The notes under the pieces are model-generated. The model saw nothing but the letters and a program-made list of their open reading frames with translations, was not told where the DNA came from and made no database searches. From assembly GCA_027026255.1 (NCBI GenBank), contig JALVOT010000006.1, positions 1-64,000 on the forward strand: DNA of 64,000 bases. Reading direction: 5' to 3'. Position 1 is the stretch's first letter, and each line of letters opens with the position of its first letter. Of the stretch, positions 42,262 through 62,126 are shown piece by piece. Source of the DNA: Caldifarciminota bacterium (lineage in GTDB: Bacteria > Hydrothermota > Tepidihabitantia > SM23-42). The position numbers and the translations under genes were made by a program.

Positions 42262-42286
42262 AAATAGCATTTTATAGAGGTTGTTT

Positions 42287-43759: not shown

Positions 43760-43761
43760 TG

Positions 43762-43848
43762 ATGTCACGAAATGCACTGAAATGTCATGAAAAATGTCAC
43801 AGAAAAAATGTCATGAAAAGGGATAAAATGTCATGAAAAATGTCACGA
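43762..43848 (+). repeat. Imperfect tandem repeats before and inside the hsdS start
   Basis: ATGTCATGA/ATGTCACGA-type units occur at about 43762, 43782, 43794, 43808, 43828 and 43840. They are separated by A-rich runs, and related ATGTCCCT units follow at about 43875 and 43887. The unit contains two overlapping start codons in different frames. Gain or loss of units could shift the hsdS reading frame or start. Confidence 0.7.
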
Positions 43849-45146
43849 AAAAGTTGCCCCCTAAAAACCCTAATATGTCCCTAAAAATGTCCCTAAAAAA
43901 TGCCAAAAATCTTAATCCCCAACTCCCACCTGACTGGAGATGGGTGAGGCTGGGGGAGGTATGCAAGATAAACCCTCGGCGTCCGGAAGGCTTCAATCGT
44001 TCTCCAGATGCACCAACTACATTTGTTCCAATGGCTACGGTAGATGAAAAATTGGGGACTATTACCAACCCAGAAATTGTTCCTTACTCGAAAGTTTCAA
44101 AAGGGTATACTTATTTTGAAGAGAACGATGTCCTTTTTGCCAAAATTACCCCATGCATGCAGAATGGAAAGCATGTGATAGCGAAAAATCTAATTGACAG
44201 GATAGGTTTTGGGACAACAGAGTTTCATGTTTTAAGGCCCAATAAAGAAATATTGTCAGAATGGATTCACTTTTTTATTAGACAACCTCTCTTTTTACAG
44301 GAAGCAACGGCATATTTTACAGGTGCTGTTGGTCAACAAAGAGTACCTCAAGAATTTTTAGAAAATTATATAATTCCTCTCCCTCCTCTACCTGTCCAGC
44401 GTCGTATTGTTGCTAAGATTCAAGAATTAATGCAAGAGGTGGAGCGTGCCCGAAAGTCTTGCGAAAAACAACTTGAGACAGCCAAAGCCCTTACCGCCGC
44501 ATACCTCCGCCAAGTCTTCGAAAGCGAAGAGGCAAAGAAGTGGGAGAGGAAGAGACTGGAGGAGATGTTAGATATTATTGAAAGCGGTAGCCGTCCAAAA
44601 GGGGGAGTGTTTGAAATAAAAGAAGGTATCCCATCAATCGGAGCTGAACATTTAAATCCTTTCGGGGGTTTCCTTTTTAATAATATGAGATTTATACCCA
44701 AAGAATTTTACGAGAAAATGAAAAAAGGCAAAGTTCAAAAAGGTGATGTGCTGGTCGTTAAAGACGGTGCAACAACCGGTAAAGTTTCCTATGTAGATGA
44801 TGATTTTCCTTACGGAATTGCTGCTATAAACGAACATATCTTTAGGCTAAGAGGCAAAGAATTTCTAACCCAGGAGTTTCTATTTTGGTTTTTATATTCT
44901 CCTTTAGGACAAATCCAAATTCAGCAAGAATTCCATGGAGCTGCTCAAGGTGGTATAAACCAGCGGTTTGTAAATGGAGTATATATTCCTCTCCCCCCTC
45001 TTCCTACTCAGCGTCGCATCGCCTCTGAACTTAAAGAGAAAATGGCTTATGTTGAAAAACTCCGTATTTCTATTGAAAAGCAGTTAGAAGCGATAAACGC
45101 CCTACCGCAGGCAATTTTAAGGAAGGCATTTAGGGGGGAATTATGA
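43833..45146 (+). CDS. hsdS: Type I restriction enzyme specificity subunit
   Basis: This 437-residue protein has two target-recognition domains, each followed by a helical conserved region. TRD1 starts at DWRWVRLGEVCKINPRRPEG and ends with PLPPLPVQRRIVAKIQELMQ. TRD2 ends with PLPPLPTQRRIASELKEKMA and KQLEAINALPQAILRKAFRG. The subunit selects a bipartite DNA target. The first ~30 residues (rich in Lys, Asn and Met) are encoded by repeats and are not part of the family fold. It overlaps the OLD nuclease gene by 4 bases. Confidence 0.92.
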   Translation: MKNVTKKLPPKNPNMSLKMSLKNAKNLNPQLPPDWRWVRLGEVCKINPRRPEGFNRSPDAPTTFVPMATVDEKLGTITNPEIVPYSKVSKGYTYFEENDVLFAKITPCMQNGKHVIAKNLIDRIGFGTTEFHVLRPNKEILSEWIHFFIRQPLFLQEATAYFTGAVGQQRVPQEFLENYIIPLPPLPVQRRIVAKIQELMQEVERARKSCEKQLETAKALTAAYLRQVFESEEAKKWERKRLEEMLDIIESGSRPKGGVFEIKEGIPSIGAEHLNPFGGFLFNNMRFIPKEFYEKMKKGKVQKGDVLVVKDGATTGKVSYVDDDFPYGIAAINEHIFRLRGKEFLTQEFLFWFLYSPLGQIQIQQEFHGAAQGGINQRFVNGVYIPLPPLPTQRRIASELKEKMAYVEKLRISIEKQLEAINALPQAILRKAFRGEL

Positions 45147-47209
45147 GAATGTCTCGTGCCTATATTGATAATTTCAGGAATCTTAGAAATTTCACAATGG
45201 AACTTTCCGAACTTGAAATATTAGTAGGTGAAAATAATATTGGAAAAACCAATATACTGCTTGCAATTAGTAAAATTTTATCTTTTGATCGAAGAAGAGT
45301 TTATTTTGATAATGATGACTTTGCTAACCCTGAAAAGCCCATAATAATTGAGTTAGTATTCACTGATTTCTCTACGCCCGAAGAGGAGGCAATTTTCTTT
45401 GATCATGAAGGGTTCAAGAACCCTGAAATGAATGAAGTAGTAATAAGGTTAAAGGCTGAATGGGATGAAAAGGAAAGGGACATCAATGTTTCCCTAACAT
45501 TTGTAAGAGAAGATTTGCCTGAAGATGAACAAGAAATAAAAGAGTTCTCCTGGCATTTTAGGAGATATATCCCCTATTACTATATTCCTGCACATAGAGA
45601 TATTGAAAAGGAGATATCCTCCAGAAGAGGAGATCTATTTGAGATATTACAATCATTTACTCCCTATCAACTCATGCCGATTCAGGCTTTAAAGAAAAGG
45701 ACTTTGGCAAAGATAGATGACTTTTTAAAAGAAGCAGAAAAAAGTGATTATAATGACCTCGTATCAGAGTTAACTGTAGTTAAAACTACAGTAGAAAAAG
45801 TGGAAGAGGTTACAAAAGAGAAAATTGAGGAGATTATAACTAAAATCGAGGCTATTAAAGGCAATATTGAAAGCAATGAAAAAATCGATGAATCATCACT
45901 TTTTACCAAGATTTTAAGCCAGCTCAAAGATCTTATTATAGTCCTTCAGAATAGGCTCTCTATTCAAAGTAGTCTAAGTTCTCTTAAAGAAGAATTTAAG
46001 AACCTGTATGGATTAGAAAATATTCAAAATAGCTTAAATGAATTATTAGCTGAGTTTTTAGATAGTGAAGAACTAACTTTAGATACTATTTCTGCAAAAG
46101 ATGAAGATTTTCTGAGGCAATTAAGCATCGGGATAGGCAACTATTCTATATTAAGACATGGAAGTGGATATCAAAGCCTCCTAAGCCTTATTCTAAAATT
46201 GTTCAAAACCATCTACCAAATAATTAAAAGAGAGGAAGTCGAATTTAAAAGCTTTATAGTAGCAATAGAAGAACCCGAAACGCACCTACACCCTCACCTA
46301 CAAAGACATCTTATTAAAACCCTAAAAAATATTCAGCTTAAATTTTCAGACGAAGGTATATCCCTTCAATTTGTAATATCTACTCATTCCCCTTTTATAA
46401 TAACACCACTTTCTTTTGATTCTTTAACATTTCTCCGTCCTGGTAGAGATACCTCACCAAACGCAATAAAGATAAATAAAAAAGAATTCGCTCAAGAAAT
46501 TGTTGATAAACTTAATCTGACTAATGAAAAGGCTAAACAAAAGAAAATGAATCAAATAAGTCGGTGGTTAGATCATTTGTTTTATCATTCTCCAGAAATG
46601 TTTTTCAGTAAATGTGTCATAGTAGGAGAGGGAGAGACTGAACAAGGAGCTATCCCGATATTTGCTGAGAAAATTAGAAAAAATTTAGATCAATCTGGAA
46701 TTTCTTTCTTGAATGGTGAAGGGGATAGTCTAATTTATCCTGTAAGACTACTATCAGCATTAAAAACTTCATGGGTGTTAGTTGTTGATAAAGATAAAGC
46801 TGAAATTCTCAAATCTTTGGAATCAGTTTCTGAGGAAAATATTTTTGTTACAAACACAAAAGCATTTGAAACAGAAATTCTTTCAACTGCGCCTTTAGAA
46901 AAAATACTTCTAGCTTTGGATGAGAAATCTATTCCTGAAAAGAATAGAGATAGAATAGCTGATTTAATAGGAGATTTTCAAAATCTCAAAGGAAAGGAAA
47001 TTGAATCTTTACAAGATGTATTGGCTTATTTGGAAGAAAAAGAGATTGATAAATTTAAAAAGGATTTTATCTTAAAATGGATGAAAGCTGAAAAAGGATT
47101 ATCTTTTGGCAGGATTTTAGCTGAACATCTTGAACCTAATGAGATACCAACAGTTTTTGTGGAAGCTATTATAAAGGCTGGAGAGATGTCAAGGGAGTAT
47201 AGAGAGTGA
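45143..47209 (+). CDS. Gabija-like GajA: OLD-family ATPase-TOPRIM nuclease
   Basis: This 688-residue protein has an N-terminal ABC-type ATPase (Walker A VGENNIGKTNILLA at about 29-42, EEPETHLHPHLQRHLIKTL signature about 375, switch ISTHSPF). A C-terminal TOPRIM nuclease follows (VGEGETEQGAIPIF about 495, VVDKDKA about 550). A long coiled-coil insert lies between. OLD plus a UvrD helicase next to it defines Gabija, a phage-defence nuclease controlled by nucleotides. It is longer than the best-known GajA (~580). It overlaps hsdS and the helicase gene by 4 bases each. Confidence 0.8.
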   Translation: MRMSRAYIDNFRNLRNFTMELSELEILVGENNIGKTNILLAISKILSFDRRRVYFDNDDFANPEKPIIIELVFTDFSTPEEEAIFFDHEGFKNPEMNEVVIRLKAEWDEKERDINVSLTFVREDLPEDEQEIKEFSWHFRRYIPYYYIPAHRDIEKEISSRRGDLFEILQSFTPYQLMPIQALKKRTLAKIDDFLKEAEKSDYNDLVSELTVVKTTVEKVEEVTKEKIEEIITKIEAIKGNIESNEKIDESSLFTKILSQLKDLIIVLQNRLSIQSSLSSLKEEFKNLYGLENIQNSLNELLAEFLDSEELTLDTISAKDEDFLRQLSIGIGNYSILRHGSGYQSLLSLILKLFKTIYQIIKREEVEFKSFIVAIEEPETHLHPHLQRHLIKTLKNIQLKFSDEGISLQFVISTHSPFIITPLSFDSLTFLRPGRDTSPNAIKINKKEFAQEIVDKLNLTNEKAKQKKMNQISRWLDHLFYHSPEMFFSKCVIVGEGETEQGAIPIFAEKIRKNLDQSGISFLNGEGDSLIYPVRLLSALKTSWVLVVDKDKAEILKSLESVSEENIFVTNTKAFETEILSTAPLEKILLALDEKSIPEKNRDRIADLIGDFQNLKGKEIESLQDVLAYLEEKEIDKFKKDFILKWMKAEKGLSFGRILAEHLEPNEIPTVFVEAIIKAGEMSREYRE

Positions 47210-49041
47210 AACAGAACAGAATTGTGCTTGATAAAGAGCAGAAGAAAGCTGTCTATGCACCTATAGATCAGTCTTTAATTGTTCTTGCACCTCCAGGATG
47301 TGGAAAGACCTTAATTATGGCAAAACGAATAGAATGCCTAATTAAAATAGGTGCCATTACGCCCCCATTTAAAATTTTAGGATTAACCTTCACTAATGCT
47401 GCTGCAAATGAGATGAAAGATAGGGTAACAAGTGAAGTTCCTGAAGCAGAAGGCATTGTTTATATTACAAACTTTCATTCTTTCTCTTATTCTGTGTTAA
47501 GGGCATATGGTAATGTTGTTGATATATCAAGAAAATTTACTGTGATAGGTGAAATTGAGAAAGAGGATTTCCTATTAAGGATTTTCAGTAAATATGAAAA
47601 AAGCATTAAAGAGATTACTGAGCTTCCTCCAGAAGATAGATGGAAACAACTTCAAAATAACGAAATTTGGAATAGGTATAAGGATTGGAATATAGAAAGA
47701 CTTTTAAAAAGTAATAAGGTATATATGGATGGTGAATATGATGAATTATTTGAAAAGATAAAGAAAGAATATCAAATTGAGTTAGGCAAAAACGATTATT
47801 TGGATTTTGACCATATTCTTTGGTACACTTATAACCTTTTAAAGAATAATTCCTCAATCCTTGAATACTATCGCGCTACTTTTAGATACGTTTTAGTAGA
47901 TGAATTTCAGGATACTAATTCATTACAATTTAGAATACTTTCTCTACTAACCTCTAATTATCAGGATTCTACAAGATACCCACCTGCAAAAGTATTTATT
48001 TTAGCTGACCCAGATCAAGCTATATATGAATTTCAAGGAGCAACACCTGAGAACATTAAGGTAGCTAAGAAAATTTTCCGCTGTGAAGTGATAGAACTAT
48101 ATAAAGACTATAGATTTTCTTCAGAGGGAATAAAATTGCTAAAAAATGCTATTTCGTCTTATATACGAAATGGATATATTAGTGATATTACAATAAGCTC
48201 AACGAATGATAAACCCAGTTTTGTTGCCTTAAATAGTATCGCCGAAGAAGCAAATTATATTTTGAATAAGGTTAAAAGATTCCAGAGTGATAATATCTCA
48301 CTCCATGAGATAGCCATTATTGCATTTCCTCAATATAGGTTAAACGAAGTAAAAAGATTACTCGATCAAGAGAACATTAATAATATTTTTGTTCCTGATT
48401 TTAGATCCGGGAATATTGAGAGAAATTATAGAAAGTTATTTAAAGGCATTAGTAATATTGCAAAGAAAAAATCCAGTGGTTATCTATACTCTGCTTTTGA
48501 AGGAGTATGTGAAAAAGAGAATTTTGATATAGAAAATGATGAGGTACTTAAGATACTATGGAAAGTGGCTAAAAGCTATGACGGAGACCAGTTCAAGGCA
48601 AAATCCCTTTGGGAAAAGAATCAAATGTTTGTAAATGAGGTACTTTTAGAGATTAACTGGGGTGAAGTGCTAAGAGAAAGAGTCAAAAATAAAGTATTTC
48701 TTTCAACAATTCATGGTGTAAAAGGTTTGCAATTCGAAGTCATTATAATCTGTGGACTTGAACAGTATTCTTTCCCTAATTGGCGTATTTGCAATCCGTG
48801 CTATAGGAATTCTATAAAACCTGACTACCTTAAAAAAGAATTGGTTAAGAATTTAAAAATATTTTACGTTGGTATCTCACGAGCAAAAAAATATCTATAT
48901 ATGACAAGTTCTTTAAGCAGCAATTATGGGAGTTATAGACCTGTGACATGCATATTGGAGCCCTTTGCAGAAATGCTCGATTTAAATTTAAACAATGGTA
49001 GATTCTGTCCCAATTCGCGTGTCTTATATGGAGGAAAGTAA
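47206..49041 (+). CDS. Gabija-like GajB: UvrD/Rep-family helicase
   Basis: This 611-residue superfamily 1A helicase starts with GTG, overlapping the OLD gene (GTGA). Motifs in order are Walker A LAPPGCGKTLIMAKRI (about 27), VLVDEFQDTNSLQF (about 228), ADPDQAIYEFQGA, STIHGVKGLQFEVIII and YVGISRAKKYLYM. It pairs with the upstream OLD nuclease to form a Gabija-like module. Codon use is strongly AT-rich compared with the neighbouring hsdM, so the pair may have been inserted separately. Confidence 0.82.
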   Translation: MKQNRIVLDKEQKKAVYAPIDQSLIVLAPPGCGKTLIMAKRIECLIKIGAITPPFKILGLTFTNAAANEMKDRVTSEVPEAEGIVYITNFHSFSYSVLRAYGNVVDISRKFTVIGEIEKEDFLLRIFSKYEKSIKEITELPPEDRWKQLQNNEIWNRYKDWNIERLLKSNKVYMDGEYDELFEKIKKEYQIELGKNDYLDFDHILWYTYNLLKNNSSILEYYRATFRYVLVDEFQDTNSLQFRILSLLTSNYQDSTRYPPAKVFILADPDQAIYEFQGATPENIKVAKKIFRCEVIELYKDYRFSSEGIKLLKNAISSYIRNGYISDITISSTNDKPSFVALNSIAEEANYILNKVKRFQSDNISLHEIAIIAFPQYRLNEVKRLLDQENINNIFVPDFRSGNIERNYRKLFKGISNIAKKKSSGYLYSAFEGVCEKENFDIENDEVLKILWKVAKSYDGDQFKAKSLWEKNQMFVNEVLLEINWGEVLRERVKNKVFLSTIHGVKGLQFEVIIICGLEQYSFPNWRICNPCYRNSIKPDYLKKELVKNLKIFYVGISRAKKYLYMTSSLSSNYGSYRPVTCILEPFAEMLDLNLNNGRFCPNSRVLYGGK

Positions 49042-49043
49042 TT

Positions 49044-50552
49044 ATGTCTAAACAGAATCCTCATAAAATCACTACTCCACAGTCGCTGAATACCTATATT
49101 AAAGGTATCTGCGATATTATGCGACGCTCGGGTAGGGCTGGTGCCCTTCAGTATGTTCCTGAACTTACTTGGATGCTCTTCCTCCGCATCCTTGATGAAC
49201 GAGAGGAGAAGGAGGCTGAACAAGCAAAGGCAGTTGGGGTTGAGTCCAGATTTTCGTTGAGTTATCCCTATCGTTGGCGGGACTGGGCTGCGCCAGATGG
49301 AAAAAAACGAAAAGAACTTCAGGAAGGAACTTTGGGCGGATTTATGAGTTTTGTTAATGGTGAACTCATACCTTACCTCAGAAGCCTTAAAGATAGACCA
49401 GGTGTTTCCCCTCGTCAGAAGGTTATTAGCCAAGTCTTCTCAGCCATTGAGAGAACAGGTATAGATACTGAACGCAATCTTCTGGATATTCTGGATAAGA
49501 TTCACAACCTTTCCCTCGAAGAGGTTGATGAAACTCACATGTTCCCTATTTCTCAGGTTTATGAAGGGCTACTTCAGGAGATGGGCGAGAAGAACAATGA
49601 CGGTGGACAGTTCTTCACGCCAAGAGAAGTAATCAGGGTGATGGTAAAGGTGATTGACCCCGAAATCGGTGAAACAGTCTATGACCCCTGCTGTGGAACC
49701 GGAGGATTTCTGGCTCAGGCATATCAACATATGAAACAGAAGGTGAAAACAGCGGATGATATTACGGTCCTCAAAACTAGAACCTTTTATGGAAGGGAGA
49801 AAGAAAATCTGATTTATCCAATTGTCCTGGCAAATCTTGTCCTCCAAGAGATAGATGAGCCACATATCTGGCATGGGAATACGCTGACAGAGATGGAGGT
49901 TTATGGAGGGCTCTTCTCAGGTGCACCAGCACTTTTTGATGTCGTACTTACAAATCCTCCCTTCGGCGGTAAAGAGAGAAAGGATGCCCAGACCCGTTTT
50001 GCCTATAAGACCAGGGCTACCCAGGTTCTGTTCCTCCAGCATGTGATAGATAGCCTAAAAGAAGGTGGAAGATGTGGTATTGTGATGGATGAGGGTGTTC
50101 TCTTTCGAACAAATGAGAAGGCTTTTGTCCAGACCAAGCGTAAACTTCTAAATGAGTGTAACCTGTGGTGTATCGTCAGCCTTCCACCGAAGGTCTTTGT
50201 GAATGCCGGGGCGGCAAGCAAGACCAACCTTCTATTTTTCACCAAAGGAAAGACAACAAAAGAGATCTGGTATTATGACCTATCTGATCTACATATAACC
50301 AAAAAGCAACCTCTAACCCTAAAACACTTTGAGGAATTCTTCAAGTTGTTTCCCAAAAGGACAATAAGCAAGCGTTCCTGGAAGGTATCAATAGAAGAGA
50401 TTGAGGCCAAAAATTTCGATCTCAAAGCTGTCAATCCTAATCGAAAGGAACAAGAAGATAAAAGGACACCCAAAGACCTGATCCAGATTATCGAAAAAGA
50501 ATCAGCAGAAATCGCGAAGGTTTTGAAAACCTTGAAAGATAAGGGGCTATAA
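49044..50552 (+). CDS. hsdM: Type I restriction-modification DNA methyltransferase
   Basis: This 502-residue protein has the N-terminal helical HsdM domain (about 10-130), SAM motif I YDPCCGTGGFLAQAYQHM (about 213-230) and motif IV LTNPPFGGKER (about 307-317). It is an N6-adenine methyltransferase. HsdM together with HsdS protects host DNA. It begins 2 bases after the helicase gene, so the Gabija-like pair lies inside the hsd operon. Confidence 0.95.
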   Translation: MSKQNPHKITTPQSLNTYIKGICDIMRRSGRAGALQYVPELTWMLFLRILDEREEKEAEQAKAVGVESRFSLSYPYRWRDWAAPDGKKRKELQEGTLGGFMSFVNGELIPYLRSLKDRPGVSPRQKVISQVFSAIERTGIDTERNLLDILDKIHNLSLEEVDETHMFPISQVYEGLLQEMGEKNNDGGQFFTPREVIRVMVKVIDPEIGETVYDPCCGTGGFLAQAYQHMKQKVKTADDITVLKTRTFYGREKENLIYPIVLANLVLQEIDEPHIWHGNTLTEMEVYGGLFSGAPALFDVVLTNPPFGGKERKDAQTRFAYKTRATQVLFLQHVIDSLKEGGRCGIVMDEGVLFRTNEKAFVQTKRKLLNECNLWCIVSLPPKVFVNAGAASKTNLLFFTKGKTTKEIWYYDLSDLHITKKQPLTLKHFEEFFKLFPKRTISKRSWKVSIEEIEAKNFDLKAVNPNRKEQEDKRTPKDLIQIIEKESAEIAKVLKTLKDKGL

Positions 50553-51059: not shown

Positions 51060-51779
51060 ATGTTATCAATATGTGATAACCCTATAGTACAAAATATATT
51101 TAAAAATTCACCAGAACTTAAGATTCAGATACCGTGTCCTCGATTAAATTGGGGAAAAAGAAAAGAGTGCAGTGTAGGTAAAAATCAATGTGCTTTCCCA
51201 AATTACTATTTATCTCTACAACCTGACGATGATGATAGCAAAAATATAATACAAAAAAAATCAAAATTATTAGACGATATAAAAGAAATATATAAAAACC
51301 TTAGCGGTCGTAGAAACCCACATACTAACAAAGTTGAAAACTGGATATCTGAAGTGATAGATGAAGAGATAAAAAATTTGAAGAAAGCGGATACCAGAAG
51401 TATAACAATAAATTTAGGCGATACTAAGCTGAAAGTTGGCGTTGACTGTTTATTTTATACAGAAAAATCACAAAAATTGGTAATGATAGAATTTAAAGGC
51501 GCTTTTGCAGATTCTAATAGCGTTCGTAGTGCGATACTTAATGCGGTATTAGTGGCAGAATGTAGTGAGATAAGTCAGCCATTTGCAGGTTACACAGTGC
51601 ATTATTACTATGTGGGTAATTTCTGGGGAGATATAGATATTCTTATGCAACAGTACAAGAATAGCAATGTTGTTAAACCATTAATGCAATGGGCAAAAGA
51701 AAAGGGATATTTTGCTGATGTCTATGGTTTAAAGAGTATTCAGGGATTAATAAAAGATATCGAGAGTAAACTAAAATAA
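51060..51779 (+). CDS. Nuclease-like protein with D...ExK motif, paralogue 1
   Basis: This 239-residue protein belongs to no family I recognise. It shares an ordered set of motifs with the gene at 57246-57992: a Cys-rich N-terminus (CPR...C...C), YYLSLQP, NPHTNKVENWI, then GVDCLFYTEKSQKLVMIEFK with the following GAFADSNSVRSAILNA. Asp 129, Glu 144 and Lys 146 give a D-x14-ExK spacing typical of PD-(D/E)xK nucleases. AAGGAGG precedes the ATG. No partner gene overlaps it. Confidence 0.6.
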   Translation: MLSICDNPIVQNIFKNSPELKIQIPCPRLNWGKRKECSVGKNQCAFPNYYLSLQPDDDDSKNIIQKKSKLLDDIKEIYKNLSGRRNPHTNKVENWISEVIDEEIKNLKKADTRSITINLGDTKLKVGVDCLFYTEKSQKLVMIEFKGAFADSNSVRSAILNAVLVAECSEISQPFAGYTVHYYYVGNFWGDIDILMQQYKNSNVVKPLMQWAKEKGYFADVYGLKSIQGLIKDIESKLK

Positions 51780-52599: not shown

Positions 52600-52845
52600 T
52601 CAAATAAATTTTTGCATGTAAGTTAATATTTTGGAATACAGAGAATAAGGCTTGATCCTAAAATTCGATATCTTGACAATTTATAGATTGAGATTATAAT
52701 GGATTAATAATATTAAAACTTATTAATGCCTAATGGCCACCAAATAGGCCAGTAAAGTTACTGATAGGAGATGAATATGATGAGATTTAATGGTAATCTG
52801 ATTTACAAACTCTACGGCTTGTCAGATGAGGAGATAAAAATTGTA
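52600..52845 (+). repeat. Promoter/small-ORF module, copy 1
   Basis: This ~246-base segment is similar along its whole length to 58015-58259. Shared in order are TCAAAT...CATGTAAGTTAAT, AGAGAATAAG, CTTGACAATTTATAGATT with a -10 box, TTAAAACTTATTAAT and ATGGCCACCAAATAGGCCAG plus TAAAGT (perfect, with a TGGCC/GGCCA hairpin at 52734-52751). A small ORF with matching residues follows. It occupies the gap between the barrel gene and the AIPR gene. Confidence 0.85.
52673..52700 (+). promoter_or_regulatory. Promoter of the small ORF-AIPR operon
   Basis: TTGACA (52673-52678), a 16-base spacer and TATAAT (52695-52700). Both boxes are perfect and conserved in the second module copy (TATACT there). A conserved hairpin follows about 35 bases downstream. 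Confidence 0.8.
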
Positions 52846-52879: not shown

Positions 52880-54949
52880 ATGGCAAATATAGGATTTCAA
52901 AAAAGATTAAAATCTGAAATTGAAAAGATATCACAAGAGTTTGGTTGTCAATTAAATATTGCTTTCATTCGTTCAATATTAGAAGCAATCTTTAATATGC
53001 ATGAGTTCGAAATCGATGAGGCTATTACTGACGGAGGGATGGATAAGGGGATAGATGCGATATTTGAACAAGAGAATGAAGAGGGTGAAAATATTTTATA
53101 TGTAGTTCAATCAAAATATTTTAATCAAAATTACGATAAGACAATAGATGAAAACTCAAAAAATTTAATAATTCATGCTGTTGAGAACTATATTTTAGGA
53201 GATTATCCATTAAATAATTTGAATAAAATATTGAGAAAAAAAGTAGAAAATTATAGAAATAGATTAGTTGAAGGAGAAATTGATAGCATAAGTATTGTTT
53301 TTACTACTAATGGACAAAGGCCAGGTGATAATATTATCTCAGAATTGGAAAAATTTAAAGAAGATAATCCTCAAATTGTCTATGAAATATATGCTGAGGA
53401 TGATTTATCTGCATTATTTATACCGCCGTCAGCCAGAATGGTGAAAAAAATCGAACTCAAAATTATAAAAGAAATTGGTAGCGGTGATAAAACTTTTCTA
53501 AATATGCCAGATATAGATGTAATGAGCGGTAAAATGATCCGAGTTGATGTATATGAATTAGCAAAAGTAATAGAAAAAAATCCGAACATTTTTAATGCCA
53601 ATGTTCGGGCCTATCAGTCGATAAGGCATAAGGTCAATAAACAAATTGCTGAAACTTTAAGAGATCCTGAGCAGTTGAAACAGTTTATTTATCTGAATAA
53701 TGGAATTACTCTATTATGTGACGATTTTGAAGTTAAGCCTGGCAACGTAATTATTAAGTTAAAAAATCCTTCAATAATTAATGGATGTCAAACAGGAAAT
53801 ACTATTTTTGAAGTATACAAAGAAGGGAAAATACAACCCAACTGCGGATTTGTTTTGGTGAGAATAATAAAGTCGAAGGACGTAGAAATTAAAAAAAGGA
53901 TAATTCTAGCTACCAATACTCAGATAGCCGTTAAAAGTAGAGATTTGATTAGTGAAGATAAAATCCAGAAGGAGTTAGAACAGCAATTTTTAAATTTGGG
54001 TTATTACTATGATCGTAAAAAAAATATGCATAGAGATAAACCAAAAAATAAAGTTATTGACTTAGAGAAAGCCGCACAAGCATATTTAGCTTTATATTTG
54101 GAAAAACCGGCAGAAGCCAAGAATAAAAAAAGTGAAATTTATAAAAGTTATTATGAACAAATTTTTAACAAAGATCTTACTGCTGAGCAATTATTGATCG
54201 CTTATAAATTATATTTGGATATTAATTCACGCGTTCGTGAATTAAGAAAAAATGTGTCTCCAAAAAGAAAAAGTGTCTTAGGTAATAGCATAATGCATTT
54301 ATTACCGCTATATAGAGAATGGATACTCAAGCCGGATAATATGGATTTGCCTGTGATAGAAAAGGATCTATCTCAAGTAATGTTTCCAAATAGTAAGATT
54401 GATAAGGTTATACGAAAAATGGAAAAGATAATAGGTATTTTATCCGAAAGAAGAGATTTCAATCCTCAATACTTCTTCAAAAGTGCCAATTCTTTAAATA
54501 AGATTAAAAATGACAGAACCGCAAAAGTAGATTATCAAATTCTTCTCACTAAAGAAAATAGGCGAAGATACAGGGATTTAAGATATTATAAGCCAGAAAA
54601 ATTTTCTGTTGATGGTAATACCTTTTTAAAAATAAAACATTGGAACGATCTTTTTGTATGGATGATGGATAAATATTCTGAACAATTTGATGTAACAGAA
54701 GGTAATATAAATTTCGTTGATTCGGGCTCTAGGGTGCTTCTGCTAAAAAATCCTGACACGGAGGAAAAAAAGATAAGGAAGCAAATTAAAAATGGATTAT
54801 GGCTGTTGACCAATTTTAGTTCTAAAAAAATAAGTGGATTTTGTTTTGAATTTGCTGAGAAATTAAATTTTGATTTATGCATAAGATTACGACCGACAAG
54901 ATTTAGGCTCCAAAAAAAATATAAAAAACAAAGAAGACACAAACATTGA
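52880..54949 (+). CDS. AIPR-family abortive-infection protein with N-terminal nuclease domain
   Basis: This 689-residue protein has a PD-(D/E)xK-like domain (GGMDKGIDAIFEQE at about 52-65 with Asp 59, then ILYVVQSKYF with Gln 77/Lys 79). The AIPR domain follows: LKQFIYLNNGITLLCDDFEV at about 270-290 and NPSIINGCQTGNTIFEVYKE at about 297-316. AIPR proteins are phage-defence factors, probably DNases. AAGGAGG lies upstream. Codon use is very AT-rich. Confidence 0.85.
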   Translation: MANIGFQKRLKSEIEKISQEFGCQLNIAFIRSILEAIFNMHEFEIDEAITDGGMDKGIDAIFEQENEEGENILYVVQSKYFNQNYDKTIDENSKNLIIHAVENYILGDYPLNNLNKILRKKVENYRNRLVEGEIDSISIVFTTNGQRPGDNIISELEKFKEDNPQIVYEIYAEDDLSALFIPPSARMVKKIELKIIKEIGSGDKTFLNMPDIDVMSGKMIRVDVYELAKVIEKNPNIFNANVRAYQSIRHKVNKQIAETLRDPEQLKQFIYLNNGITLLCDDFEVKPGNVIIKLKNPSIINGCQTGNTIFEVYKEGKIQPNCGFVLVRIIKSKDVEIKKRIILATNTQIAVKSRDLISEDKIQKELEQQFLNLGYYYDRKKNMHRDKPKNKVIDLEKAAQAYLALYLEKPAEAKNKKSEIYKSYYEQIFNKDLTAEQLLIAYKLYLDINSRVRELRKNVSPKRKSVLGNSIMHLLPLYREWILKPDNMDLPVIEKDLSQVMFPNSKIDKVIRKMEKIIGILSERRDFNPQYFFKSANSLNKIKNDRTAKVDYQILLTKENRRRYRDLRYYKPEKFSVDGNTFLKIKHWNDLFVWMMDKYSEQFDVTEGNINFVDSGSRVLLLKNPDTEEKKIRKQIKNGLWLLTNFSSKKISGFCFEFAEKLNFDLCIRLRPTRFRLQKKYKKQRRHKH

Positions 54950-54972
54950 TGTCAAAGAATACGAACACTAGA

Positions 54973-55056
54973 TTGATCAATTAATTTATGAACTTTATGG
55001 TTTGGTAGATGAAGAAATAAAAGTTGTGGAAGATGCTACTAGACAAAGTTATTAAA
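54973..55056 (+). pseudogene. Fragment of a type IIG-like restriction-methylase C-terminus
   Basis: After an in-frame TAG the sequence reads IDQLIYELYGLVDEEIKVVE, then DATRQSY and a stop. This is a near-match to the C-terminal end of Eco57I-like restriction-methylases, but the body of the gene is absent. It occupies most of the 162-base gap between the AIPR and reverse transcriptase genes and resembles the two small ORFs at 52777 and 58191. Confidence 0.55.
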
Positions 55057-55111: not shown

Positions 55112-56983
55112 GTGATTGATTCATTATATAAAAAATTATATGATATTAACCTTTTAAAACGAGCGTGGCATTTAGCTAGAAGTGATACCCGAACTGATTT
55201 CATCCAAGATTCTTTTAGATATGAGGATTTTGCTTTTAATTTAGATAAAAATCTACAGGCTATTTCAACGGCTCTGAAAGCGGAACGATATCACCCAAAC
55301 TCCCTTCTTTATATTGATGTACCTAAATCTACATTATCAGTGAGACCCGGTAGTATAACTTCTATTGAAGATAGAATTGTTCTTTTTGCGATTACTATGT
55401 TAATTGCTCCCAAGTTAGATAGAAAATTACCAGAAACAGTTTATTCATATCGCCTAAAAGAAGGATTTGATAACGAGTCGCTTTTCAAGGATTTAGAGAT
55501 TCTTAAATTCCCTTTTCTAAAGAGGACGACAATACACCGGCAAATAGATATTTTAGAACCTTGGTATGGACAATGGCCCAAGTTCATTGAAAAAGCTGTC
55601 TATGCATTTGAAAGAAAAGGATATAAATTCTTAACTTTGTCTGACATCTCTGCCTATTTTGAAAATATTAATTTGCGCATACTACGAGATAATTTGTTAA
55701 AGTATTTACCTAAGGAGCAAAAAATAATAAATCTGTTATATCTCCTTCTAGAATATTGGACATGGCCAACTATACATGGTCTTTCAATAGAAAGAGGTAT
55801 TCCTCAAGGTAATGATGTAAGTAGTTTTATAGGTAACATTTATTTATTACCTCTTGATGAAGAATTTATAAAATTTAGCAGAAAGAAAGATATTCAATAT
55901 TTTCGGTATATGGATGATGTTAAAATATTTTCAAAAGAAGAAAATATTGCAAGGGAAGTTATATTTGTAATGAATAATATTCTCAGAAGGTTACATCTTA
56001 ATATTCAAGGTACTAAAACAATAATTTTAGAAGGAGATGAGATACGCGATGAGCTAATAGATAATAGATTGGATGAAGTAAACAAGGTAATAAAAGATAT
56101 TCAAAAAAAATCAAAATTGCTTACAAACAATAAGAGACAAGATTATCTTAGTAAACTTAAAAAAGAATATAAGAAAATTAAGAAAAAGAATAAAATTATC
56201 CAAGGTAAAGATTTACGACTTTATCAGAGGCTTATCACGGGTTTTACACTTTTGGATTCTTCTTACATGGTTAATAATTTATTAAAACAACTGCCTAAAA
56301 ATCCAGATGCAAGGCTCCTTAGGAAATCAGTTTTATATCTTAAAAAATTCCCAAGGAGCAGCGAGAAAATAGAAAATAGTTTGCTGCAATTCCTGGAGTC
56401 CTCTGTTAACCTTTTCCCTTATCAAGAGGCTCGTATGATCGAATTATTGCGATATTTAAAAAATATATCTCCAAGAAGCAGTTCCTATGCAAACAAGTGT
56501 TTGAGATTAAAAAAGAAACATTGGTATGTCAAAGTCCAATCTGCATTGCTTTTATCTAGTTTAACCTTGTCAAAAAAGCCGTTAAAAACTTTGAAAAGAA
56601 TGTATGAGAATGAGAATAATATTGAAGTGAAGAGAGCCCTTGTTGTATGTTTATGTCAGTTACAAAAGGATGAATTAGATGAGTTTTTAAAAACTCTCGT
56701 ATTTGAGAATGATAAAAAGTTATCTTCCTTGGGTAAGATGTTATTCTATATCTACACTAATAGAAATAATACCGCCGTCAAAGAGATATCGAATATATTC
56801 CGCCATTTCAGTGAAGAATTTATATTGGACAGATATTACAAGATTGAAGTTATGAAATATTGTAATAACGGTGAAGTAAGAAAAAAATTATTAAAAAGAC
56901 TAAAAGCAGTCAGAAAAATAATTAAGAGAGAACATCTTAAAAGAAAAGTTAATAAAACTATTAAGTTTCTGGATGAACCGTAG
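55112..56983 (+). CDS. Defence-type reverse transcriptase with HEAT-like helical tail
   Basis: This 623-residue protein starts with GTG. RT motifs are TLSDISAYFENI (catalytic Asp 178), ERGIPQGNDVSSFIGNIYLL (about 227-246) and FRYMDDVKIF (YMDD 266-269). The N-terminal part (SVRPGSITSIEDRIVLFAIT, then ETVYSYRL) fits the abortive-infection/unknown-group RTs. Residues ~340-623 are helical and HEAT-like, as in the alpha-Rep tails of those RTs. No maturase, HNH, or retron NAxxH/VTG motif is seen. It probably acts in phage defence by DNA synthesis; the subgroup is unassigned. Confidence 0.8.
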   Translation: MIDSLYKKLYDINLLKRAWHLARSDTRTDFIQDSFRYEDFAFNLDKNLQAISTALKAERYHPNSLLYIDVPKSTLSVRPGSITSIEDRIVLFAITMLIAPKLDRKLPETVYSYRLKEGFDNESLFKDLEILKFPFLKRTTIHRQIDILEPWYGQWPKFIEKAVYAFERKGYKFLTLSDISAYFENINLRILRDNLLKYLPKEQKIINLLYLLLEYWTWPTIHGLSIERGIPQGNDVSSFIGNIYLLPLDEEFIKFSRKKDIQYFRYMDDVKIFSKEENIAREVIFVMNNILRRLHLNIQGTKTIILEGDEIRDELIDNRLDEVNKVIKDIQKKSKLLTNNKRQDYLSKLKKEYKKIKKKNKIIQGKDLRLYQRLITGFTLLDSSYMVNNLLKQLPKNPDARLLRKSVLYLKKFPRSSEKIENSLLQFLESSVNLFPYQEARMIELLRYLKNISPRSSSYANKCLRLKKKHWYVKVQSALLLSSLTLSKKPLKTLKRMYENENNIEVKRALVVCLCQLQKDELDEFLKTLVFENDKKLSSLGKMLFYIYTNRNNTAVKEISNIFRHFSEEFILDRYYKIEVMKYCNNGEVRKKLLKRLKAVRKIIKREHLKRKVNKTIKFLDEP

Positions 56984-57004
56984 TGAAATACCATTTGGGA
57001 GAAA

Positions 57005-57110
57005 TGGTGTCAGTTCTATCTGCCAAACCAAATCTGCAATATCTTCAGCCCCTCAGGACTTGATTACTTGAAGGGTGTTTATGAGGAATTTAATGAAAGG
57101 TGGTAAGATG
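57005..57110 (+). repeat. Structured repeat B, copy 1
   Basis: This begins 21 bases after the RT stop. It shares with copies at 58479-58555 and 59367-59468 the strings CCAAATCTGCAA, CTCAGG...GATTAC and GTTTATGAGGAATTT, and ends GATGAAAGGTGGTAAGATG-like, where the last ATG starts the next frame. The hairpin arms are partly decayed (CCCTCAGG...TTGAAGGG). Confidence 0.75.
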
Positions 57111-57239
57111 AAAAGATTAACTAATGCATTTGGAATTCGAGGTCTAAAAGCTTCTATGTCTGATAAAAATATTTTGGAAGAGCTGAATGAACGAACTGCT
57201 CACTTTCAGTTTGTTAATGGCATTAGCTTTAGTAGGTGA
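57108..57239 (+). CDS. Small ORF downstream of the reverse transcriptase
   Basis: This 43-codon frame uses the GGTGG site supplied by repeat B and starts MKRLTNAFGIRGLKASMSDK, continuing NILEELNERTAHFQF. It ends 6 bases before the ATG of nuclease-like paralogue 2. The composition is protein-like and mostly helical. I find no family match. It could be a small partner of the RT or of the nuclease, or a truncated remnant. Confidence 0.4.
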   Translation: MKRLTNAFGIRGLKASMSDKNILEELNERTAHFQFVNGISFSR

Positions 57240-57245
57240 TTGTCA

Positions 57246-57992
57246 ATGTCTATTTTACTAAAATGTTATAATAGACAGGCACAAAGAGATGTAGGGAAAA
57301 GTGGAATAGATTTCAATAAAGTTTATTGTCCACGTCCTGAAGAACTAAGATGTGATCTAATCAGTGCGCCATGTTCCTATCCGTATTATTATGCATCACT
57401 GCAGCCGCTTCGGAATGATAACAATCGTTTTAAACAATACAAAAAGGAAATTTATAATGAAATTCATAAATTATACCTAGAGGGTAAAAATAATGGTGTT
57501 TGGGGTCGACATAATCCCCATATTAAAAAAATTGAAGACTGGATAGCAGATGTGGCAAAAAAAGAAATTCGCAAATTAGAAAGATACCCTTCAGAAAATT
57601 CTCCTTCAAGACATATTAAACTTTTTCTGGATAATATAGAATTTCAGATCGGTGCTGATACGTTACTCTATCATTCTGATACATATACACTAATTTTAGT
57701 TGAATTTAAGGGCTATTTTAGAGATACTAATAGCATACGCAGTGCAATACTAAATGGGTTAATCTTAAAGCATGCAAGATTAAAAGATGCTCCTAAAAAA
57801 GTGAAGCGCAAATTATACTATTATTTGGGAAACGGTTGGGAATCTACTGATAGTTTAATTAGAAATAAATTACCGGTTATCGCGCCATTAGTACAGTTTG
57901 CACTGAAAAAATGTTATGTACGGGGATTTTATACTTTAAGATATTTGAAAGAATTCGTGAATGATCTGAATGATGCTCTTGCAGATTTATAG
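57246..57992 (+). CDS. Nuclease-like protein with D...ExK motif, paralogue 2
   Basis: This 248-residue protein starts at ATG 57246 (TAGGTGA upstream). It aligns in order with the gene at 51060-51779: VYCPRPEE...C...C, YPYYYASLQP, HNPHIKKIEDWIADVAKKEI, QIGADTLLYHSDTYTLILVE and FKGYFRDTNSIRSAILNGLI. Asp 138, Glu 153 and Lys 155 repeat the D-x14-ExK spacing exactly. Cys residues in the N-terminal third are shared and may bind metal. The family is unrecognised; a DNA-cutting effector is inferred. Confidence 0.6.
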   Translation: MSILLKCYNRQAQRDVGKSGIDFNKVYCPRPEELRCDLISAPCSYPYYYASLQPLRNDNNRFKQYKKEIYNEIHKLYLEGKNNGVWGRHNPHIKKIEDWIADVAKKEIRKLERYPSENSPSRHIKLFLDNIEFQIGADTLLYHSDTYTLILVEFKGYFRDTNSIRSAILNGLILKHARLKDAPKKVKRKLYYYLGNGWESTDSLIRNKLPVIAPLVQFALKKCYVRGFYTLRYLKEFVNDLNDALADL

Positions 57993-58014: not shown

Positions 58015-58259
58015 TCAAATCTTCCCATGTAAGTTAATCTTTTGTAGTGTAGAGAATAAGATTTAAGTCTAAATTAGACATCTTGACAATTTATAGATTA
58101 AGATTATACTAAATTAGTAAAATTAAAACTTATTAATAACTGATGGCCACCAAATAGGCCAGTAAAGTGAAAAATTGGGGATGAATGAATATGATAAAAT
58201 TTAAAGATGATTTTTATAACAAAGTCTACGATTTAACTAAAGAAGAGATGAAAATTGTG
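58015..58259 (+). repeat. Promoter/small-ORF module, copy 2
   Basis: This is the second copy of the 52600-52845 module and fills the gap between the nuclease-like gene and the 89-residue ORF. It keeps the boundary repeat (TCAAATCTTCCCATGTAAGT), the promoter, the perfect ATGGCCACCAAATAGGCCAG hairpin block (58143-58162) and a related small ORF. Confidence 0.85.
58083..58110 (+). promoter_or_regulatory. Promoter in module copy 2
   Basis: TTGACA (58083-58088), a 16-base spacer that differs by one base from copy 1, and TATACT (58105-58110). It would drive the small ORF, the 89-residue ORF and the DUF5677-like gene. Confidence 0.75.
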
Positions 58260-58307: not shown

Positions 58308-58569
58308 TACGAGAGAAGCAATAAAATGTATTGTCCAAAAGATTGATGGAACTCCTTTTTTATTCTTTTCCGGAAAAGATATTCAGTCTTTAATTTTTAA
58401 GGATATACTGAAGGAATATGATAATTCCTATCCGACAAATTTAAAAAAATCCAAAGGGGAACTTTATTGGGCTGAAAAGGTGTCAGGTCTTGCAGACCAA
58501 ATCTGCAACATCCTCAGCACCTCAGGAGTTTATTATCTGAGGGAAGTTTATAATGAAAATAATTTCTGA
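58300..58569 (+). CDS. Unrecognised 89-residue ORF ending in repeat B
   Basis: The frame starts MNNTREAIKCIVQKIDGTPF and continues LFFSGKDIQSLIFK; its last ~30 residues (GLADQICNILSTSGVYYLRE) are encoded by repeat B. The start REAIK...INGTP-LF recalls the first strand of SIR2-like defence domains, but the glycine-rich NAD motif is missing. It may be a truncated SIR2-like gene. It overlaps the DUF5677-like gene by 17 bases. Confidence 0.4.
   Translation: MNNTREAIKCIVQKIDGTPFLFFSGKDIQSLIFKDILKEYDNSYPTNLKKSKGELYWAEKVSGLADQICNILSTSGVYYLREVYNENNF
58479..58555 (+). repeat. Structured repeat B, copy 2
   Basis: This has the GCAGA-CCAAA-TCTGC hairpin (58492-58506) and a second inverted repeat CCTCAG (58520-58525)/CTGAGG (58537-58542). 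The middle (CCAAATCTGCAACATCCTC) is almost identical to copy 3. It ends at the ATG of the DUF5677-like gene and supplies its GAGGGA ribosome-binding site. Confidence 0.8.
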
Positions 58570-59365
58570 ACCAAATATAAAAAATAATGCAAGGAAAGCT
58601 CTTAATAAATTAAAGCCGCAATTTCTAAGGATTATAAAGTCTGCTGAATATGACCTACAAAAACATATTGAGATTAAATCTAATGACGTAGAAAGATTAT
58701 ACAAATTACTTATTGTTCTTTTTTTAAGGAAAGCAATTGACATCTGTCGAGCGATTTTGAGTATTCTGTCGACGGATATAACTTTATGGCGCGAAGCTAC
58801 AGCGTTAGCTCGTACTTTAACCGAAGTTTATACAAATTCACGTTTAATGAAAACAAACCCACAGTATTGGTGCGAAAGATTCATAAGATTTGATTGGGTA
58901 CGTCGATACAAATTTATGGAACAAATAAGCAACCTAAGCGAAGAAATGAAAAAAACCTTAAATGCTGATGTTGAAAAAAAATCCGAATTAAAGAAGGAAT
59001 ATGATAAATTTAAAAATGACTATGGTAAACATCAGCTGAATACATGGCACGGTTTGCGGAGTGGTGAATTTTTGCAAATAATTAAGGAAGAAGGCGAAGA
59101 TTCATACATTTATCAAGTTATTTATAGATTTCAATCAGATCAAGTACATGCCGAAAGTAAAATCTTGGATGAATATCTGCACCAGACAGATGAAGGTATT
59201 GAAATTGTAAAAAAGGTGACACCTGATGATATAGATAGGCTTCTGGTCACGGTAATAACGCTCTTCACAGGGCTATATGCATTGTGTAATGATGTCTTAG
59301 GCTTTAATAAAGGCGAACTAATTAATGATTTCATTAGAAAACTCAAAAAAATGGCGAAAAAATGA
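58553..59365 (+). CDS. DUF5677-like helical protein
   Basis: This 270-residue, all-helical protein contains WREATALARTLTEVYTNSRL (about 82-101) and, later, YRFQSDQVHAESKILDEYLH (about 195-214). The R-x3-E and S-x2-H-type residues match the layout of DUF5677/HEPN-like proteins found in defence loci. An RNase role like other HEPN proteins is possible but not shown. It lies between two copies of repeat B. The family call is moderate. Confidence 0.5.
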   Translation: MKIISEPNIKNNARKALNKLKPQFLRIIKSAEYDLQKHIEIKSNDVERLYKLLIVLFLRKAIDICRAILSILSTDITLWREATALARTLTEVYTNSRLMKTNPQYWCERFIRFDWVRRYKFMEQISNLSEEMKKTLNADVEKKSELKKEYDKFKNDYGKHQLNTWHGLRSGEFLQIIKEEGEDSYIYQVIYRFQSDQVHAESKILDEYLHQTDEGIEIVKKVTPDDIDRLLVTVITLFTGLYALCNDVLGFNKGELINDFIRKLKKMAKK

Positions 59366-59366
59366 T

Positions 59367-59468
59367 GTTATCTCTATCTGCCAGACCAAATCTGCAACAT
59401 CCTCGGCACCTCAGGCATCGATTACCTGAGGAAGATTTATAAGGAATTTGATGAAAGGAGGTAAGATG
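59367..59468 (+). repeat. Structured repeat B, copy 3
   Basis: This begins right after the DUF5677-like stop. It has a perfect 7-bp inverted repeat CCTCAGG (59409-59415)/CCTGAGG (59425-59431) and CAGA-CCAAA-TCTG before it. It ends GATGAAAGGAGGTAAGATG, so the repeat provides both AGGAGG and the start codon of the next gene, exactly as in copy 1. Confidence 0.8.
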
Positions 59469-60626
59469 TTGAACAATCCTTACTTAAACCATTTAAATCA
59501 GTTAATTGAGAATTATTCTTCAATTCTTATAGATAATACGCTTAATATTGATACGGTATGGAATATTATAAAGAAATTGGATCATTCTCAAATCATGGAT
59601 GGACTAATAGGGTGTCTTAATGCTGAAAATACCAATAATAACATAATAGATAGTATTATAGGCTTACATAATGTGGATACACCTATACCCCCTCAAATAT
59701 TGTCTCATTTCATCTTTCACCAGCCTCCACCTTACATTACGCTTCGATTATTATTATTGTATTTAATTATTGGGTACTGTATCCCATTAGCAGCTGGTAT
59801 CACCAAAGATCTGTTAGCTTATCCACATTTTCGCTCAATGTTAGAGGAACTGTGGGAAATTGCGATCTTTGAAATACATCCTTATCAAATTGGTCCAACC
59901 AATCAAGGTACTTTACATTCTATCTCTGTTTTACGTATGTTAAATAGAGTTAACAATCTACACACATTGGATTTAACAGGTATCGGACACAATTCGAGAA
60001 CTGTTAATATAGCAGAAGGCGTGATACTATCATCAGCGTGTGCACTTCACGACATCTGGAAAGCCTCAATTAATTCAGGGAATCATAATGTTAATGGTTC
60101 TAATTTTATTCGCAATTCAGCCGAACTTGTTAACCAATTTTCTGCAAATAATCAAAATGAATTTAATAATTTTAAAGAGGCAATAGCTAAAGTTACCTTG
60201 GTCCACAGTGGGTCTTACAATTTTAATTTAATCGGGAATCTATCAATAAATAATATTAACTGCCGCGTGAAGGAAATCAGCGCTATTTTTCGGCTTAGTG
60301 ATGTTCTTGATATAACCTGTAAAAGAGTATCAACAATTTACAAAGAAATAAATCTAAATAGTTTGCCACCAGAAAAACAAGCCGCTCTTCTTGCCCGAGA
60401 AAAAATTAATAAAGTATGTTTCGATTTGAATAATAATCTCATTATACTTCGGTGTAGTGCAGTTGATCAGAATGTTCACGACACTGTAAATTATGAAAAT
60501 GCTTTATTGGATAATTCTAATAAAGTCACCTTATCCACTGGTGCAGTAAATATAAGCAACAAGAGTTGTAATGCTGGTGTGGTACTCGATAATATAAACA
60601 TTCCGAGAGTTTTACGAGCTATTTAA
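59466..60626 (+). CDS. HD-domain phosphohydrolase-like protein
   Basis: ATG 59466 directly follows AGGAGG and gives 386 residues. The order of likely metal ligands is His in GTLHSISVLRML, HD in SSACALHDIWKA (about 195-206), His in KVTLVHSGS and Asp in FRLSDVLDIT, which is the H...HD...H...D pattern of HD enzymes. The N-terminal ~100 residues are helical and the C-terminus is beta-rich. A nucleotide or RNA phosphohydrolase in defence is inferred. AT-rich codon use matches its neighbours. Confidence 0.55.
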   Translation: MLNNPYLNHLNQLIENYSSILIDNTLNIDTVWNIIKKLDHSQIMDGLIGCLNAENTNNNIIDSIIGLHNVDTPIPPQILSHFIFHQPPPYITLRLLLLYLIIGYCIPLAAGITKDLLAYPHFRSMLEELWEIAIFEIHPYQIGPTNQGTLHSISVLRMLNRVNNLHTLDLTGIGHNSRTVNIAEGVILSSACALHDIWKASINSGNHNVNGSNFIRNSAELVNQFSANNQNEFNNFKEAIAKVTLVHSGSYNFNLIGNLSINNINCRVKEISAIFRLSDVLDITCKRVSTIYKEINLNSLPPEKQAALLAREKINKVCFDLNNNLIILRCSAVDQNVHDTVNYENALLDNSNKVTLSTGAVNISNKSCNAGVVLDNINIPRVLRAI

Positions 60627-60651: not shown

Positions 60652-60695
60652 TCAAATCTTCGCATGTAAGTTGATTTCCACTTCGTAAGTGGAAG
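60652..60695 (+). repeat. Boundary repeat with hairpin, left of DUF4143 gene
   Basis: TCAAATCTTCGCATGTAAGT, then TGAT and the hairpin TTCCACTT-CGT-AAGTGGAA (60676-60694). Its last 30 bases are identical to 62075-62104, and 39 of 42 positions match in total. The first part matches the start of the modules at 52600 and 58015. Confidence 0.85.
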
Positions 60696-60714
60696 ATTAT
60701 TGGAATGATTGTCC

Positions 60715-60759: not shown

Positions 60760-62083
60760 GATAAGAACAATTCTCCTTGAATGGGGCAGCCGGAAACTGC
60801 CCGGGGTAATCGACCGTGAGATCGACCTGAGCAGTTATGCCCGGGTGAAGCCGGCCAAAATAATCGTGCTCACCGGCTTCAGAAGGGTGGGCAAGACCTA
60901 TCTCACATTCCATTTAATACAGAAGCTCTTAGAGCGGTGGTCCCGGGAGGAGATTCTCTATATTAATTTTGAGGATGAACGGATTCCGTTAAGAACGGAA
61001 TTCTTAACTCTTCTTCTGCCTACAATAAGACGATTATTCCAGAAGAAGGTAAAGTTCTTATTTCTTGACGAGGTCCATAATATCCCGAATTGGAGTAAAT
61101 GGTTGAGAAGGGTTTACGATAAAGAAGATATTCGGTTCTTTGTCTCCGGGTCTTCCTCAAAGATGTCGAGACAGGAGATCCCTACTGAGTTGAGGGGCAG
61201 ATTTTTGGAAGTCAGGGTATTACCTCTTTCCTTTAAGGAATTTCTCCGCTTTAAGGATTTGAAATTTGACCTGGAAAGAGTAGAATATGTTGTGGACGAG
61301 AAGGCAGAACTCTCTAAGGCGCTTGATGAGTATCTGTCATACGGTGCCCTGCCTGAGATTGTTCTGGCCGATGAGGAGAAAAAAATCGAAATCGCCCATT
61401 CATATTTTCAAACCGTGATCAGGAGGGATATCATTGAGCGCCATCGGGTGAACAATGAAGAGGCATTAAAGGCTCTTTTACGATTACTGCTCAATTCCAC
61501 AAGTTATACAATCAGCAAACTCTATAACACCCTGAAGAGTTTGAATTATGAAATCGGCAAGAGCACCCTGATGAACTACATCAGTTATATTGAAAATTCT
61601 TATTTTATGATCAGTACCCCGATTCTTTCCTTCAAGATAAAAAATCAATTACAGTATCCGCGCAAGGTCTATTTCATAGATAATATCTTCATTAACTCAA
61701 TCTCTACAAAATTCTCGAAGGACTACGGAAGGCTCTATGAGAATCTGGTTGCGGTTGAACTCTTAAGGCTAAGGGCAAAAAATCCATTAATGGATTTCTA
61801 TTATTGGAGGAATCCACAACATGAAGAGGTTGATTTTGTGATCAAAATCGGCGAAAAGGTCAAACAGAGCATTCAGGTCTGTTATGACCTCTCAGACCCC
61901 GACACCAGGAAGCGGGAATTGAGGGCTCTGGTCAAGGCTGGCAAAGAGTTGCAATGCGATAACATGTTGGTCATTACCGAAGATTATGAAGGCCACGAGA
62001 TATTCAAGAATAAAGAGATAAAATTTATTCCTTTATGGAAATGGCTATGCCGATCCAGGTTTAAATCTTTCCAGGTAAGTTGA
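60749..62083 (+). CDS. AAA_14 ATPase with DUF4143 domain
   Basis: This 444-residue protein has Walker A VLTGFRRVGKTYLTFHL (about 35-51), Walker B KFLFLDEVHNIPNWSKWL (about 102-119), sensor FFVSGSSSKM, and a C-terminal DUF4143 domain. The latter has a PD-(D/E)xK-like stretch, ENLVAVELLRL...YYWRNPQHEEVDFVI (about 330-370). These stand-alone proteins are abundant in candidate phyla and often mobile; their function is unknown. Its last residues and stop are encoded inside the right boundary repeat. Base composition is less AT-rich than its neighbours. Confidence 0.85.
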   Translation: MDRTIRTILLEWGSRKLPGVIDREIDLSSYARVKPAKIIVLTGFRRVGKTYLTFHLIQKLLERWSREEILYINFEDERIPLRTEFLTLLLPTIRRLFQKKVKFLFLDEVHNIPNWSKWLRRVYDKEDIRFFVSGSSSKMSRQEIPTELRGRFLEVRVLPLSFKEFLRFKDLKFDLERVEYVVDEKAELSKALDEYLSYGALPEIVLADEEKKIEIAHSYFQTVIRRDIIERHRVNNEEALKALLRLLLNSTSYTISKLYNTLKSLNYEIGKSTLMNYISYIENSYFMISTPILSFKIKNQLQYPRKVYFIDNIFINSISTKFSKDYGRLYENLVAVELLRLRAKNPLMDFYYWRNPQHEEVDFVIKIGEKVKQSIQVCYDLSDPDTRKRELRALVKAGKELQCDNMLVITEDYEGHEIFKNKEIKFIPLWKWLCRSRFKSFQVS

Positions 62084-62104
62084 TTTCCACTTCGTAAGTG
62101 GAAG
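62061..62104 (+). repeat. Boundary repeat with hairpin, right of DUF4143 gene
   Basis: This is the direct copy of 60652-60695 with the same TTCCACTT-CGT-AAGTGGAA hairpin (62085-62103). It supplies the final codons and the TGA stop of the ATPase gene. The hairpin may also serve as a transcription end between this gene and the convergent maturase gene. Confidence 0.85.
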
Positions 62105-62126
62105 GTGATAATTAGTATCGCAGAAT

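Follow-up and report, generated by a model that had tools for sequence, protein, structure and literature searches.

The reverse transcriptase (RT) gene at 55112-56983 of the window, by which we mean the whole 64,000-nucleotide stretch of Caldifarciminota DNA that was analyzed, is by profile comparison a member of the already named DRT group UG21, by a wide margin, and the neighborhood that recurs around UG21 RTs appears to be methylase-based restriction operons. We think it fairly likely that the gene encodes a stand-alone RT with an alpha-Rep tail, which would synthesize DNA without a cis-encoded noncoding RNA (ncRNA) and serve as a second-layer, probably abortive, cargo of restriction-modification (R-M) loci. 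UG21 was already known, having been named within the RT-classification literature (PMC8934634), and no published account of its activity or mechanism was found in the literature searched; what is new is the restriction-operon context. The presence of UG21 in two unrelated restriction operons and beside a third provides a testable hypothesis about its function and its cloning partners.

The RT and its assignment to UG21

The gene and its main parts are as follows.

55112..56983, + strand: UG21 RT, 623 aa, GTG start, free of frameshifts; RT domain at about residues 1-310, helical tail at about 310-621
55643..55645, + strand: catalytic Asp178 of motif A, invariant in a four-sequence alignment
55907..55918, + strand: YMDD of motif C, residues 266-269, read from the sequence; Asp268 and Asp269 both invariant
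56039..56980, + strand: alpha-Rep-like helical tail, all-helical in a low-confidence AF2 model, with a weak HEAT_2 match; the UG21 profile reaches residue 532

The PADLOC profile RT_UG21 (PDLC03759) matches residues 12-532 of 623 with 460 bits (2.1e-138), and UG19 comes next at 214 bits. The same is seen with the two full-length homologues. The RT of locus L003, from Candidatus Cloacimonadota, is 54% identical to the window RT over its full length and scores 438 bits for UG21 versus 208 for the next profile, and that of L056, from genome G451 of a Bacillota-type, Clostridia-containing phylum, is 49% identical and scores 528 versus 202, a lead of about two-fold in bits for all three. The preliminary description, made from the letters alone, had called the RT unassigned, and this is now superseded; its broader view, of a defense-type enzyme of the UG/Abi family, is upheld by the profile placement, and the gene sits in a defense island. 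The window RT and its homologues do extend about 90 C-terminal residues past the end of the UG21 profile. Matches to the group II, retron, and DRT equivalogs of NCBIfam all fall far under cut-off, in agreement with the earlier view that maturase and retron identities are lacking. A retron was rejected on 40.8 bits for the St85 model versus a cut-off of 235 and the lack of an Rfam match (msr/msd not sought directly), and a group II intron maturase on 107 bits for TIGR04416 versus a cut-off of 300 and the lack of an Rfam intron match.

Two further loci were considered as UG21 and set aside, both being UG9 plus PolA by profile: L004 (5944-9175, Phenylobacterium) and L005 (5803-8839, Bacteriovoracaceae), in each of which a UG9 RT is immediately followed by the PolA-like RTasPolA. 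These UG9 RTs resemble the window RT in having a helical tail, a second-tier profile match, and 23-24% identity, but they pair with RTasPolA, whereas the UG21 loci are without a PolA partner.

The gene is intact and of the antiviral (UG/Abi) type, presumably with a function in defense. The ORF has an RVT_1 match (Pfam, E = 4.5e-16) and a motif B reading RGIPQGNDVSS, and the catalytic Asp178 and YMDD reported earlier are present, with the Asp residues invariant among homologues and the catalytic motifs intact across three phyla; in L056, Ile replaces Met267 of the YMDD and the catalytic Asp residues are unchanged. Y6 and other Tyr residues are invariant across the three homologues too, which has no diagnostic value for priming. 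Identity in the RT domain is 66% to L003 and 59% to L056, and in the tail, below these values, 41% and 39%. Versus L003, divergence by codon position is 0.39/0.25/0.51, a pattern that argues for constraint at the protein level; position 2 is changed least and position 3 most versus L056 as well. These data bear on whether the gene is a decaying, functionless passenger of a mobile island, as the methylase-tail remnants left at 52795 and 54972 and the duplicated promoter DNA of the island could suggest. Considering that the ORF is full-length, that every catalytic residue is kept, and that the codon-position pattern holds versus both homologues, we regard this as very improbable.

The C-terminal region had been described as a HEAT-like tail of about 280 residues. 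Its helical character agrees with the AF2 model, which has only helix after about residue 310 at low confidence (mean pLDDT 61) and would make the tail alpha-Rep-like. The length is closer to 310 residues, and the HEAT_2 match is weak (Pfam, E = 0.039). The structure predictions, which left out the L056 RT, gave TM values of 0.22-0.34 versus AbiK, Abi-P2, and DRT structures, a weak match from a model that is poor in the tail.

Restriction operons as the recurring neighborhood

In L003 the RT is inserted gene-to-gene in a type I R-M operon, in the order hsdS stop, 1 nt, RT, 28 nt, hsdM. In L056 the first 8 nt of the RT gene are shared with a DrmMI-like methylase gene, and at the far end its stop codon and the start of the next gene, for a DruE/DrmA-like helicase, share ATGA; a DrmD-like helicase gene is found upstream. 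Each of these helicase genes appears as two overlapping frames, and thus this DISARM-like operon may carry frameshifts. A further locus, L042, belongs to the phylum of the window. There, hsdS is followed by the first 30 or so RT codons (81% nucleotide identity to L003 over 95 bp), which are joined to an unrelated gene, then by about 14 of the last RT codons (KRINRVIQYLETLK), and then by hsdM. Both ends of an RT are kept in this slot, so an RT once filled it; the genome is the second in the phylum with UG21 sequence. The UG21 sample therefore comprises three intact loci (window, L003, and L056) and one remnant (L042). The RT is rare (1 of 147 genomes in the window's phylum, 1 of 398 in that of G151, and 0 of 398 in that of G148), and searches of phages, plasmids, and viral contigs returned distant RTs only, or none.

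The same type I operon is present in the window, arranged R-radC-ATPase-S-[cargo]-M at 39017-50552; the RT follows 4.6 kb downstream of hsdM. Three of its features concern us here.

43833..45146, + strand: HsdS, an ORF with BLAST homology to hsdS of L003 and L040-L047; its stop is the start of the cargo slot
45143..49041, + strand: GajA (45143-47209) and GajB (47206-49041), a Gabija system in the hsdS/hsdM slot, which in L003 holds the RT
49044..50552, + strand: HsdM, PADLOC MTase_I 2.8e-176, 78.5% identical by BLAST to the hsdM after the RT in L003

GajB is a PADLOC match at 1e-77, and GajA was assigned from its position beside GajB and a BLAST match to the Old/GajA protein of L040; the start and stop codons of the pair overlap. 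The window's hsdM family occurs in 10 of the 147 genomes of its phylum, and 9 of these have an insert between hsdS and hsdM. The cargo is Gabija in the window, an Old/GajA-type gene in L040, a 199-aa protein weakly matching an IS200 transposase in L041, the RT remnant in L042, a 355-aa protein in L043, an HTH/STAND-like set in L044, PDC-S19 in L045, a gene that is Fic-like by eye in L046, and PDC-S11 in L047. With a different, mostly defense-type gene in nearly every genome, the slot is a compact hunting ground for new defense genes. Both UG21-bearing genomes of the phylum belong to the ten that carry this hsdM family, which has a chance of 0.004 before the clustering of defense islands is considered. 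Between hsdR and hsdS (39017-43833) the operon is variable once more: this gap holds a RadC-like gene and a DUF4062-type ATPase in the window, L042, and L043 and other genes in L044 and L045.

There is precedent for a defense gene inside a type I R-M operon. PrrC is embedded in the EcoPrrI locus (PMC12707154), and DarTG within a type I R-M locus of EPEC (PMC12255303). The UG21 locus is like both in this respect and differs from them in its cargo, which is a predicted DNA-synthesizing RT, and in its slot, which is that between hsdS and hsdM.

The PrrC case raises the question of whether the association goes beyond carriage. If the restriction enzyme or the methylase silenced the RT, or were sensed by it, the RT would fire when a phage disables restriction, following the logic of PrrC and PARIS. 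Insertion into the operons of two methylase systems that are unrelated to each other (L003 and L056), together with the remnant in a third locus (L042), speaks for such a role, and besides PrrC in its type I locus there is DRT3, which is set off by the block that phage Gam puts on RecBCD (PMC13174585). However, unrelated cargo occupies the same slot, which may simply give shared expression and would explain the embedding equally well; moreover, the window RT, if it works, does so outside the operon, and an interaction with the R-M enzyme is hypothetical. Hence a guardian role like that of PrrC is plausible, if rather unlikely in our estimate. We hold it unlikely that UG21 RTs in general are guardians, that is, abortive DNA-synthesizing effectors in type I and DISARM-like operons that are activated when a phage neutralizes restriction. 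If this were true, PrrC would have an RT counterpart in UG21.

Template, priming, and expected outcome

Nothing outside the RT aligns between the window and L003, so there is no alignable flank, and no Rfam match was found at the RT locus; hence there is no conserved cis ncRNA. At L003 and L056, moreover, the genes are packed too tightly to accommodate one. These comparisons argue that the UG21 RT would work without a cis ncRNA, though an RNA might be supplied in trans or from inside coding sequence. Class 2 enzymes require a cis ncRNA. A DRT of this ncRNA-templated class was rejected, as there is no space for the RNA at L003 or L056, and repeat B (see below) is absent from both and without a fold signal.

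The UG RTs with a HEAT-like alpha-Rep tail that have been studied to date need no nucleic-acid template to make DNA (PMC13174585, PMC9508834), and some of them prime on residues of their own. AbiK self-primes on Tyr44 (PMC9508834; class 1 is summarized in PMC13174585), and the class 3 enzyme DRT1 on Ser402 (PMC13275509). From these precedents, the lack of space for a cis ncRNA, and the lack of an alignable flank, template-free or protein-templated synthesis is to be expected for the UG21 RT, with abortive infection as the expected result. AbiK and Abi-P2, which are protein-primed, template-independent class 1 UG/Abi enzymes, are likewise encoded by a single gene with an RT domain and a helical tail, and two UG21 loci too tight for a cis ncRNA add to the likeness. 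The UG21 RT differs from them in its profile group, and the structural match is weak (TM 0.22-0.31).

On the reading that we favor, the RT, inserted gene-to-gene in a type I R-M or DISARM-like operon in the relatives and, in the window, probably part of a transcription unit led by AbiU just downstream of the same type I R-M operon, would oligomerize through its helical tail. Phage infection would be the trigger, perhaps upon failure of first-layer restriction. DNA synthesis by the enzyme would then need no RNA template encoded in cis and would probably start, as in AbiK and DRT1, from a Tyr or Ser of the protein itself; either the DNA product or the activated enzyme would arrest the cell. Counted against this reading of the RT as cargo are the position of the window RT outside the R-M operon and the small sample of three intact loci plus a remnant.

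Genes adjoining the RT in the window

Downstream of the RT, three features had been proposed as its partners, and all three are found there in the order described.

57002-57110: repeat B, starting 19 nt past the RT stop; further window copies at 58471-58579 and 59360-59468
57108-57239: 43-codon ORF
57240-57992: D...ExK nuclease-like protein; a paralogue shares its D140 and E155-F-K157

The proposal was that these could form one new system with the RT; in such a model, repeat B would be a template ncRNA that is reverse-transcribed and the nuclease the effector. The adjacency and order in the window speak for it, as do the start of repeat B only 19 nt after the RT stop and the conservation of the D and ExK residues between the two paralogues. 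However, the small ORF, repeat B, and the nuclease-like gene are all absent from beside the RT at L003 and L056, and thus the linkage expected of partners does not extend to the relatives. Repeat B occurs at five genomic places, three in the window and two on contig C18 (L049 9127-9234 and 6765-6839), each adjoining other genes. It had been called structured, and a palindrome is present, but the fold z-scores, +0.1 to -1.5, give no signal of RNA structure. The paralogue of the nuclease-like protein lies at 51060-51779, 3.3 kb before the RT (33% identity in a two-sequence alignment, E = 6.7e-35), and the protein has relatives in G136, a genome without a UG21 RT. We therefore consider the four-part system most improbable, and with the RT in a known group and its neighbors not conserved, the new-system part of the preliminary description falls. 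What the loci suggest is that the UG21 RT is a second defense layer carried by restriction systems and stands outside any such four-part arrangement.

Repeat B is about 100 bp long, with a palindrome (CCTCAGG-N9-CCTGAGG) and a ribosome site at its end, just before the next gene. A leader that belongs to the genes downstream is the better reading, and several genes may share it as an operator or leader. Two other readings were rejected: a conserved coding 3' end, as differences by codon position are without third-position bias, and a template ncRNA, on the absence of both a fold signal and of the repeat itself from homologous loci. A DUF5677 gene (58553-59365) and an HD-CE (HD-domain) gene (59448-60626) each have a copy before them. 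The proteins of 51060-51779 and 57240-57992 are Cys-rich D...ExK paralogues that Pfam, NCBIfam, and PADLOC place in no family; a PDB sequence search with the nuclease-like protein gave no match, and an AF2 model built from the two paralogues was uninformative (pLDDT 35).

Upstream of the RT there are two features on the same strand.

52880..54949, + strand: AbiU/AIPR-type gene (PADLOC AbiU 1.9e-65; Pfam AIPR 8.5e-47)
54972..55052, + strand: remnant just upstream of the RT, seen by translation and tblastn and resembling an adenine-methylase C-terminal tail (IDQLIYELYGLVDEEIKVVEDATRQSY)

The AbiU/AIPR gene and the RT are probably in one transcription unit: a perfect TTGACA-16-TATAAT promoter lies at 52673, and the two genes are on one strand, with no terminator called in the 162-nt gap. 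It does not follow that they are a two-gene unit built on this shared promoter. AbiU/AIPR proteins are known to form systems of their own, and no AIPR gene adjoins the RT of L003 or L056, so we find such a unit very improbable.

The DNA around that promoter is duplicated. The segments 52606-52844 and 58017-58258 each comprise a leader with a consensus promoter, a GGCC hairpin, and a short ORF like a methylase C-terminal tail; the second promoter, at 58083, reads TATACT where the first has TATAAT. Near-identical 47-nt repeats (AAATCTTCGCATGTAAGTTGATTTCCACTTCGTAAGTGGAAG...) lie at 60654-60700 and 62063-62109, on either side of an ATPase gene, and their first half is similar to the start of the 52606 and 58017 leaders.
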